A stretch of DNA of 64,000 nucleotides from Gloeobacter morelensis MG652769. Its GTDB lineage: Bacteria > Cyanobacteriota > Cyanobacteriia > Gloeobacterales > Gloeobacteraceae. The DNA lies in NCBI RefSeq assembly GCF_021018745.1, contig NZ_CP063845.1, positions 4,712,001-4,776,000 of the forward strand, in the 5' to 3' direction. The notes beneath the pieces are model-generated. The model did not search any database and was not told the DNA's origin. It was given only the letters and a program-made list of their open reading frames with translations. This document shows positions 24,208 through 27,065 of the stretch, in pieces (the first letter of the stretch is position 1; every line of letters starts with the position of its first letter). The position numbers were made by a program, and so were the translations under genes.

Positions 24208-25431
24208 TCAGGCTTCGTCGAGGGCCGCCACCCCAGGCAGGGTCTTGCCTTCGAGAAATTCGAGCGAGGCGCCGCCACCGGTGCTCACGTGGCTGAGCTT
24301 GTCGACCACGCCGGCTTTCTCAGCCGCCGAGGCGCTGTCGCCGCCGCCCACAATCGAGAGGTTGTCGCTCTCAGCCAGGGCATGGGCCACCGCGAAGGTG
24401 CCTTTGCTGAATCCCGGCAGTTCGAAGACGCCCATCGGACCGTTCCAGATCACCGTGCCCGATTTTTGGACTTCGGCCACGTAGAGCTCCTCGGTCTTGG
24501 GACCGATGTCCAGGGCCATCTGGCCCTCCGGGATGTTGACGTCGGGGGTGACCGGCGGGTCGGCAAGGTCACCAAACTTGTCGTTGGTGCGGTGGTCGAC
24601 CGGCAGCAAGAAGGTGACGCCCCGTTCCTTCGCCTCGGCAAGCAGGTCGAGGGCCAGCTGGAGCAAATCGACGGTCGTGCCGTCCTTTTTGGTGGTGCTC
24701 GTCTCGCAGCGGGAAGCCCCCACATCCACACCCTGGGCTTTGAGGAACGTGTAGGCCATCGCCCCGCCGATCAAGATGGAATCGACCTTGGTGAGCATGT
24801 TCTGGATGAGCTGGATTTTGTCGCTCACTTTGGCACCGCCCATGATGGCAAGCACCGGCCGTTCCGGGCTTTCGAGGGCTTTGCCCAGGTATTCGAGTTC
24901 TTTTTGCAAAAGCAGCCCCGCCACCGCCGGGCGCAAGTAGCGCGCCACGCCTTCGGTGGAGGCGTGGGCGCGGTGGGCGGTGCCGAAGGCGTCGTTGACA
25001 TAAAGTTCGGCGAGGCCCGCGAGCTTCTGGGCAAATTCGGGGTTGTTTTTTTCTTCTTCCGGATAGAAGCGCACGTTCTCCAGCAGCAGCACATCGCCGT
25101 CTTCGAGCTTCTTGACCGCTTCTTCGACTTCCGGGCCGATCACGTCGTCGGCTTTGTAGACCGTCTGGCCGAGCAGTTCGCCCAGGCGCTTGGCCACCGG
25201 TGTGAGGCGCAACTGATCGTCAAAACCCTTAGGTCGCCCCAGGTGGCTCACCAGGATTACCCGCGCCCCCCCGCCGGTCAATAGTTCAATGGTGGGCAGC
25301 GCAGCCCGAATGCGCGTATCGTCTGTGATCTGGCCGTTCTCGTCGAGGGGAACATTAAAATCAACCCGCACCAGAGCCCGCTTACCCTTGAGGTCCGCCG
25401 CCCCCAGGGCCTCAACCGTTTTCTTTGCCAC
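24208..25431 (-). CDS. pgk: phosphoglycerate kinase
   Basis: 407-residue glycolytic and Calvin-cycle enzyme interconverting 3-phosphoglycerate and 1,3-bisphosphoglycerate. [48 protein letters not shown] and the C-terminal [34 protein letters not shown] are diagnostic. GTG at 25431 is preceded by GGGAGA; a TTG five codons upstream is also in frame. The transcript ends at the long hairpin nearby. Confidence 0.96.
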
Positions 25432-25502
25432 CGTCCGTTCTCCCAACGTCCTTCGCGATTATTTTCCGGTACAGCCCACCCCGCAGTCAAAGACGGCGCG
25501 AC

Positions 25503-26363
25503 TCAGTTTTGGCTGCCGGACCAGTCGAGGGTGGCAAAACCCGCAAAGATCCAGTCGTCCACCGGAGTCTGGGGACTCTGCTGAAACAACAGCGGCCGAT
25601 AGGCAAAGGCGACAAGGTGGGATAAACGGCGTTCTTCACCCTCGAGCCGGTGGCGCAGCGCGGCGTCCAGGGGGTGGCAACCTTGCCGGTCCTGAATAAA
25701 TGCACACCGATCGAGCACCGGTGCCATCCGGCCACGGGCAAGGGCCAGCACCTGGCTGCCCCGGCGGCGAAAACAGGTCAAAAACGGCCCGCTCACCGGC
25801 GCCCCGATCGGTTGATATTGCTGAAGCCAGGCATCGACCGGCAGCCCACTGCGGCGGGCCGCCGCCGCAAAAGCAAGCGCGATGGCGTCGGGGCGGGCGT
25901 CGGGATAGCACAGTGCGCCGATGCGCAGCGTGCAACACAACGGATCGACCTCGAACGGATGCGGTGTGGCGTGGCGGCTGGGCATCGGGCGGGAGCGACT
26001 GAGGTCCACGCACGTGTCGCCACTGCAAATCTGCCGGATGACCGGTGTGGCCTCCGCGACTATGGCCAACCGGCCGCCCGCAGTGCCAGGCCCGCCGGCG
26101 GGCGCCTCAAAGCGCCAGGGCCGACCGATCGCCCGACCGATCGCTTCCACCAGGCTCTCGGTGTTCCAGCAGCGCGGATCGTAGCGCAGCAGGAGGCTGC
26201 CGCTGGCGATAGACGCGCAGATAGCGTGCAGGCCGGGCAACTCGCCCAAGCGCGACTCAAGCCGCGTGTCCCAGGCGGGGTCGGCTTCGAGTCCTCGAAT
26301 GGCAAGATGCAACCGGCCCGGTGTGCGCTGGGCAACGGGCTGAATGGCGATGGACATGTTCAT
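25503..26363 (-). CDS. HMA-like plus isolated P-type ATPase N-domain-like protein
   Basis: 286 residues from the ATG at 26363 (a TTG at 26450 is in frame). Residues about 10-70 (GRLHLAIRGLEADPAWDTRLESRLGELPG...LLLRYDP) look like the HMA-type domain that precedes some P-type ATPases. The rest follows the order of a P-type ATPase nucleotide-binding domain: CTLRIGALCYPDA, a GDPTEGAL-like slot now ARPDAIAL, PVSGPFLTCFRRRGSQVLALARG, APVLDRCAFIQDRQGCHPLDAALRHRLE and LVAFAYRPL. The KGAP lysine is lost, and there are no membrane helices or DKTGT phosphorylation site. Function unknown. Confidence 0.65.
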   Translation of the reverse strand: MNMSIAIQPVAQRTPGRLHLAIRGLEADPAWDTRLESRLGELPGLHAICASIASGSLLLRYDPRCWNTESLVEAIGRAIGRPWRFEAPAGGPGTAGGRLAIVAEATPVIRQICSGDTCVDLSRSRPMPSRHATPHPFEVDPLCCTLRIGALCYPDARPDAIALAFAAAARRSGLPVDAWLQQYQPIGAPVSGPFLTCFRRRGSQVLALARGRMAPVLDRCAFIQDRQGCHPLDAALRHRLEGEERRLSHLVAFAYRPLLFQQSPQTPVDDWIFAGFATLDWSGSQN

Positions 26364-26450: not shown

Positions 26451-26735
26451 GGATTAGAGATTTTTTTAATGATTGCTTGTCGGCGGTGAATTCGGTTTTT
26501 CTTAACGATTGTTTGCTCTCCCCAATATCGTGCAATTTGTGACGGAAACAAGCGAAATCCCTCGATGGGACGAAAGACAGCTCAAAAATCCGGGGGTCGA
26601 AAGTGACCCCAGGGGCTTCTCAGCTAAAACCCTCGTCCGCCCAAACCGGTGGACGAGGGTTTAACCAGAATGTCCAGGGCTGGAGGCAGAGACCCGAATC
26701 GGCGGACGGTGGCGGCAGGCCGCCCCAGAGACGCT
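26451..26735. other. intergenic region with two hairpins
   Basis: An A/T-richer gap between the HMA/N-domain gene and acpP. GGGGTC (26593-26598) pairs with GACCCC (26605-26610). The acpP terminator is annotated separately. No open frame I would support. Confidence 0.5.
26625..26662 (-). terminator. acpP intrinsic terminator
   Basis: AAACCCTCGTCC (26627-26638) pairs perfectly with GGACGAGGGTTT (26651-26662) around a 12-nt loop. On the minus strand it ends in a T-run, and it lies about 75 bases after the acpP stop. Confidence 0.85.
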
Positions 26736-26984
26736 TTAAACTTCGCTGCCGCGCTTGAGCACATATTTGACGGCGTCGCCGACGGTGGTGATCTTTTCGG
26801 CATCTTCGTCCGGGATTTCGGTTTCAAACTCCTGTTCAAGCGCCATGACCAGTTCCACCTGGTCGAGGGAATCGGCACCGAGGTCGTTGGCAAAGCTCGA
26901 TTCGGAAGTCACCTCCGACTCCTCGACGGACAGTTGCTCCACGACGATCTTCTTGACGCGTTGATAAACTTCCACTTCGTTCAT
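26736..26984 (-). CDS. acpP: acyl carrier protein
   Basis: 82-residue acidic helix bundle that carries fatty acyl chains on a phosphopantetheine attached to Ser39 in [15 protein letters not shown]. The usual helices ([47 protein letters not shown]) are all present. Start is the ATG ending at 26984 with a GCAGGA ribosome site. The usual fabF or fabH neighbours are absent. Confidence 0.97.
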
Positions 26985-27065
26985 TCCTGCCTCTAAAATG
27001 CATGCTGTTCGGCCCGGCTGTGCCTGACCCAATCGCTGATAGTACACTGCTTTGGCCTTGACGTG

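Follow-up and report, generated by a model that had tools for sequence, protein, structure and literature searches.

A gene of the Gloeobacteraceae encoding an HMA_2-like domain joined to a P2-type ATPase N-domain with replaced nucleotide contacts

In P-type pumps the N-domain is inserted into the P-domain, and when isolated in the laboratory it has been obtained as a compact soluble protein (PMC5089723). A domain of this type appears to be encoded in a gene of its own in the window, the stretch of 64,000 nucleotides analysed here (positions 4712001-4776000 of the main contig of the 5.10-Mb genome of Gloeobacter morelensis MG652769). We regard it as nearly certain that the protein in question consists of a soluble HMA_2-like domain joined to a P2-type ATPase N-domain, with the remainder of the pump absent. 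The features are as follows, in window coordinates, with the ends of the N-domain-like region (aa ~106-282) judged from the alignment.

25503..26363, minus strand: coding sequence P0001, the 286-aa HMA_2-like / P2 N-domain fusion (intact open reading frame, orthologues, dN/dS)
26127..26345, minus strand: HMA_2-like domain, aa 7-79, without CxxC (Pfam HMA_2, hhalign, Foldseek)
26049..26108, minus strand: linker, aa 86-105, about 20 aa (two collinear matches on the ATPase profile)
25518..26048, minus strand: P2-type ATPase N-domain-like region, aa 106-282 (hhalign with controls, AF2, VIA)
25869..25892, minus strand: PDAIALAF, aa 158-165, in the GDPTEGAL slot, where Ala or Ser takes the place of the pocket Glu in 6/6 orthologues
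25731..25736, minus strand: R210-G211, in the slot of the K-G of KGA, with Lys replaced by Arg in 6/6 orthologues
25674..25682, minus strand: G228-C229-H230, invariant in the family (the His also in 5/29 P2 rows)
24208..25446, minus strand: downstream neighbour pgk, which we take from its sequence to encode phosphoglycerate kinase (same order in four other loci compared)
26736..27047, minus strand: upstream neighbour acpP, presumably encoding acyl carrier protein, likewise named from sequence (same order in four other loci compared)

The open reading frame of 286 codons is intact and runs from ATG 26363 to a stop at 25503; an alternative longer frame begins at TTG 26450. A start codon aligned with ATG 26363 is present in all six orthologues and M1 is invariant, an invariance that depends on the orthologue starts having been picked to match this ATG. 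Pfam HMA_2 (PF19991) scored the protein at 21.9 bits over residues 10-77 (profile positions 10-77 of 154), and because this lies under the curated cut-off of 30 bits we use only the name HMA_2-like. The same Pfam entry matched all six orthologues at E up to 10 (best 6e-6), and searches against PDB sequences led to the metal-binding domains of ATP7B, both with the single window protein (phmmer, E 3.8e-5) and with the six-sequence profile (E 1.2e-7). A two-sequence AF2 model was poor overall (mean pLDDT 39.7) and too poor for the C-terminal half, and its first 85 residues showed the strand-helix order of a ferredoxin-like domain. Nine of the first 10 Foldseek matches of this model in the PDB were HMA domains or copper chaperones, at a best E of 2.0e-3 and with none at 0.001 or better. 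On these Foldseek and ATP7B matches, the predicted fold of this half is the ferredoxin-like HMA fold. The first ~85 residues are thus modelled in a fold like that of the HMA domains of copper ATPases and chaperones (RAN1 MBD3, 8rnz; CopZ-type, 2qif), but the CxxC metal site, looked for in the HMA part, was found in none of the six orthologues. The host genome held no further HMA_2 match at E up to 1.

The C-terminal half required profile comparison. From single sequences it had no Pfam or NCBIfam match, and its profile had no match among PDB sequences, absences that speak for a chance or convergent resemblance in which this half would be no N-domain; the whole-protein profile touched the SPCA1 N-domain among PDB sequences at merely E 1.3. 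Against chance, hhalign of the six-orthologue profile with 38 P2 N-domains (40 collected minus L090 and L093, which had no recognised end) gave Prob 98.07, E 1.2e-13 and a score of 88.55 over 120 columns, compared with a maximum of 21.46 for 100 column-shuffled profiles, 11.38 for the reversed profile, and 15.49 at most for four other ATPase slices, and the six-frame profile search retrieved ATPase N-domains in register. A chance motif match is ruled out by the shuffles and the off-target slices, and we find the chance or convergent reading as a whole scarcely credible. The whole-protein profile, aligned by hhalign with nine full-length P2 ATPases, from other genomes of the class, that begin with an HMA_2-like domain (hereafter HMA_2-P2 ATPases), yielded two collinear matches, the HMA part (profile 7-79 on ATPase positions 31-102) and the N-domain (profile 147-258 on ATPase positions 510-640), with E values for the pair of 1.2e-5 and 1.3e-5. 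At the level of sequence, the C-terminal half is homologous to P2 N-domains. A first-pass annotation had described an HMA-like domain joined to a P-type ATPase N-domain, and both halves proved to be as claimed, the former through the Pfam and PDB matches and the latter through hhalign; the motif equivalences that it had proposed (RIGALC, the GDPTEGAL slot, ARG for KGA, VLDRC and AFAYRPL) likewise agree with the alignment.

For a second AF2 run, the sequence from the window and the L011 copy were aligned with ten N-domains of ATPases encoded on viral contigs; a further 17 DKTGT-bearing frames of such contigs had no recognised end and stayed out. The best of its five models reached a pLDDT of 68.0 and a pTM of 0.72, and Foldseek returned 124 PDB matches with E values of 0.001 or lower, of which the best 50 were all P-type ATPases. 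VIA-align superposed the model on the N-domains of Na,K-ATPase (1q3i; Z 17.5, rmsd 3.7, 161 aligned) and Mg-ATPase (3gwi; Z 17.1, rmsd 2.6, 148 aligned). The modelled C-terminal half therefore has an N-domain fold, as the first-pass annotation would predict, obtained with ATPase rows in its alignment; owing to these rows, and to the poor placement of the PFDS block in that alignment, the model indicates compatibility with the fold and is no independent proof of it. The model resembles 1q3i and 3gwi in fold, but those are constructs cut from working pumps, whereas the fusion protein occurs naturally as the product of a gene of its own, has its contacts replaced and carries an HMA-like domain ahead of the N-domain.

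What is missing from the protein is equally telling. The absence of transmembrane helices noted at first sight is borne out by Kyte-Doolittle profiles, in which the highest 19-residue mean was 1.4 or less in 6/6 orthologues compared with 2.99 in a control ATPase, and the 286-aa sequence indeed has no DKTGT phosphorylation motif. Pfam at E up to 10 gave HMA_2 alone in the window protein, with no actuator domain (PF00122), and the collinear hhalign alignment passes over the actuator region of the ATPases. Some 350 aa of the ATPases, holding the membrane and actuator segments and the one with DKTGT, correspond to the short linker; DKTGT stands at residue 419-491 in the HMA_2-P2 open frames. Without DKTGT, actuator and membrane part, the fusion protein therefore cannot pump, nor can it be phosphorylated in the fashion of a pump. 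The HMA_2-P2 ATPases (L051, L053-L059, L062 and L134; L137 is cut by a contig end) share its domain order, their N-terminal HMA_2-like domain and P2 N-domain both being matched by the orthologue profile, but they possess the membrane part, actuator domain, DKTGT and P-domain that the fusion protein lacks.

The fusion gene was present in all six Gloeobacteraceae genomes drawn and in none of three other genomes of the order; among the 50 remaining genomes searched alongside, four had weak local matches (E 3e-4 to 6e-4). A six-frame search of 388 genomes of the class with the orthologue profile gave at least 40 rows in at least 34 genomes; among the matches listed, the family accounts for six, and of the others eight begin in the N-domain half and 26 in the HMA half. 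DKTGT was in frame in all six inspected of the eight N-domain rows (G165, G352, G093, G373, G104 and G307), and G165 carries a 1019-aa ATPase frame matched by both halves of the profile. In a search of 386 genomes of the phylum, a set overlapping that of the class, at least 17 genomes had matches, and only the host genome had a full-length one among them. In both searches no more than six candidates from the first look were scored in each genome, and weak matches may therefore have escaped. Among the matches listed in these class and phylum searches, no full-length fusion protein lay outside the Gloeobacteraceae. A scan of genome contigs, sensitive to close relatives only, recovered one locus, in the Aphanocapsa lilacina HA4352-LM1 MAG, which we take to be the same genome as G002; no relatives were found in plasmids (at E 0.01) or in viral contigs.

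The order acpP - fusion gene - pgk was kept in 5/5 loci compared (the host genome, G001, G003, G004 and G005; the comparison was made without G002), and the order's three other genomes showed no diverged copy in the stretch upstream of pgk. No neighbouring ATPase restores a frameshifted reading frame, the neighbours being acpP and pgk, and a frameshifted or split ATPase was rejected on the lack of an adjoining ATPase and the open frame in six genomes. Between acpP and the fusion gene lies a terminator-like hairpin (26593-26610, minus strand; four such hairpins were found in the stretch, against 2.1 expected from shuffles), and the fusion gene may therefore be read apart from acpP.

The loss of so much of a pump makes a decaying remnant worth weighing. 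Large pump parts are missing, the N-domain is far diverged (a branch of 3.1 changes per column), and no further HMA_2 match is left in the host genome, all of which would fit a pseudogene of a lost pump. Against decay stand the frame open in 6/6 genomes, the position kept in the five loci compared, the 44 columns invariant among the six orthologues in the C-terminal alignment, and dN/dS values of 0.167, 0.211 and 0.233 in three close pairs. Comparisons with farther orthologues gave 0.276 (G003) and 0.218 (G004), values for which synonymous sites were almost saturated, that with G005 was not computable, and the rate of change is higher in the N-domain half than in the HMA half. We rejected the pseudogene on dN/dS and synteny and consider it very improbable. 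That the gene is under purifying selection is well supported, as are the architecture and the homology, and the low dN/dS in close pairs together with the fixed locus indicates that the fusion protein does something.

Because both halves are collinear with HMA_2-P2 ATPases, an origin from such an ATPase by internal deletion is attractive; a separate fusion may instead have produced the gene. The N-domain tree, built without G002, fails to place the family, which sits on a long branch, and topology tests rejected neither a grouping with the HMA_2-P2 ATPases (p-AU 0.343) nor one with most other P2 rows (p-AU 0.433), with the HMA_2-P2 row L056, labelled "other" at first, moved for the test. When single sequences are scored, the HMA_2-P2 ATPases do not as a group supply the closest N-domains: the top one (L135) belongs to an ATPase frame without HMA at its start and the second (L134) to one in which HMA is present.

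Several other open frames came to light alongside. Contig 160 of G045 (L023) carries, within 7948 bases, a 1068-aa HMA_2-P2 ATPase and a 220-aa HMA_2 frame, the latter possibly a partner protein. Three frames of 413-437 aa (L009, 493-1803, minus strand; L096, 1393-2688, plus strand; L098, 1468-2706, plus strand) have an HMA_2-like start and no DKTGT; their hydrophobic stretches resemble, by eye, the membrane segments of P1B-ATPases, and Pfam on two of the three gave HMA_2 or HMA alone, below the cut-off. They may represent another dead pump-derived protein, with the membrane part kept. In a relative of the window's genome, a 287-aa frame (L129; G001:C1, around 569970) with a partial actuator-domain match (positions 41-92 of PF00122) and a KGA/SP motif, again without DKTGT, is perhaps a fragment of a P-type ATPase.

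Glu, Phe and Arg are ATP contacts of P-type pumps. Our reference for the pocket was the P2 ATPase of the host genome, with the Glu of GDPTE, the Phe of PFDS, the Lys of KGA and the Arg of MRVLG. According to one paper, this Lys is conserved in the ATP site of the N-domain in pumps other than those of the P1B and P6 types (PMC10654040). Across the six orthologues these positions read AAASSS for Glu, VVVLQQ for Phe, RRRRRR for Lys and HHHQH- for Arg, whereas all 29 other P2 rows have E, F, K and R, respectively. None of the four canonical contacts is kept in any orthologue, and the alteration of key ATP contacts that had been read from the single sequence thus extends to 6/6. A fifth pocket position, that of the Lys which follows the Phe at a distance of five residues, reads PPPPGK and is kept in one orthologue only (G004); column placement around the Phe, which governs both the Phe and this Lys, is the least certain part of the pocket alignment. 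Because the four contacts are replaced, pump-like ATP binding has probably been lost, and we think it likely that the canonical pocket would not bind ATP. By comparison, the nine tabulated HMA_2-P2 ATPases keep Glu, Lys and Arg in 9/9. Those nine (L051, L053-L059 and L062) have a pocket of their own, with the Phe changed to Arg and one Lys to Asn in 9/9, whereas 29/29 other P2 rows keep that Phe and Lys, an unusual pocket for apparently complete pumps.

Among the invariant residues, R200-R201-G202, D225, G228-C229, L259-F260, W271 and others are rare in ATPases, whereas W179, Y183, Q224 and H230 are invariant in the family but common to part of the ATPases. Since purifying selection coincides with invariant residues mostly lacking in ATPases, we suppose that a binding surface has been kept, and from this surface and the literature on autoinhibitory pump domains we infer a soluble regulator. 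A tail before the HMA core of LpCopA is proposed to lie between the A- and N-domains and prevent turnover (PMC11970713), and in ATP7B-type pumps MBD-3 may have an autoinhibitory role (PMC10973460). Our tentative reading is that the fusion protein is a pump fragment, exapted and catalytically dead, that serves as a soluble, protein-binding regulator, possibly of a resident P-type ATPase. Domain surfaces used for interdomain contacts in pumps would engage the cytosolic domains of such an ATPase, or another partner, in trans and would modulate it. Regulation through protein binding is a step that we offer with some reserve, and a P-type ATPase as the target is a guess with the odds against it. 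A PF00122 search shows three P-type ATPases in the host genome: a CopA-like one with GMTCASC, a KdpB-like one, and a P2 ATPase without an HMA start. A P1B-type ATPase (CPC and HP motifs) occurs in 6/6 family genomes, so that a possible pump target is always at hand. A P2-type ATPase (PEGL, KGAP) was found in 4/6 and not in G002 and G005, which are drafts at 93-94% completeness. With P2 ATPases in only four of six genomes and no other HMA_2 match in its own, the cognate pump is not evident, and the locus, with acpP and pgk as neighbours, offers no partner link. It is an unlikely though specific extension that the protein would be a trans-acting pseudo-pump, the remainder of an HMA_2-P2 ATPase after excision of its membrane, actuator and phosphorylation parts, which became fixed in this one family and tunes or inhibits other P-type pumps by mimicking their autoinhibitory contacts.

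The first-pass annotation had named a regulator, a decoy for ATPases and a nucleotide sensor as options, and of these a classical nucleotide sensor appears the least likely, because the canonical contacts are replaced. A broader version, in which the N-domain half would bind a ligand or nucleotide through its altered contacts and the HMA half would relay the state to a partner, draws on the Arg-Gly fixed in 6/6 at the Lys-Gly position, on the family-invariant residues not found in ATPases, and on the place of the gene immediately before pgk, the gene of an ATP/ADP enzyme, on the same strand. The HMA_2-P2 ATPases add to it, since without the Phe and the second Lys they nonetheless keep Glu, Lys and Arg, and changed pockets therefore occur in seemingly complete pumps. 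The loss of all four classical contacts in 6/6, with non-conservative replacements of Glu and Arg, weighs against sensing, which we judge to be rather unlikely. A role in metal response or metal buffering, with metal bound by the HMA fold together with C220, C229 and H230, would be consistent with the modelled fold and with the invariance of C152, C220, C229 and H230 in 6/6; the HMA part nevertheless lacks CxxC throughout the family, and C152 and C220 are also frequent in ATPases, leaving C229 and H230 alone as distinctive, so that we regard this role as doubtful.

The domains of the protein are known and their combination, free-standing and probably dead, is new, and no published report of such a protein was among the matches listed in the open-access literature, a body outside which most subscription papers lie. 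An N-domain that stands free in nature and under selection, with its nucleotide contacts replaced and an HMA-like domain preceding it, would be evidence that the domains of a pump can be released and reused. It raises the question of whether the domain contacts that regulate pumps in cis may also be effective in trans.
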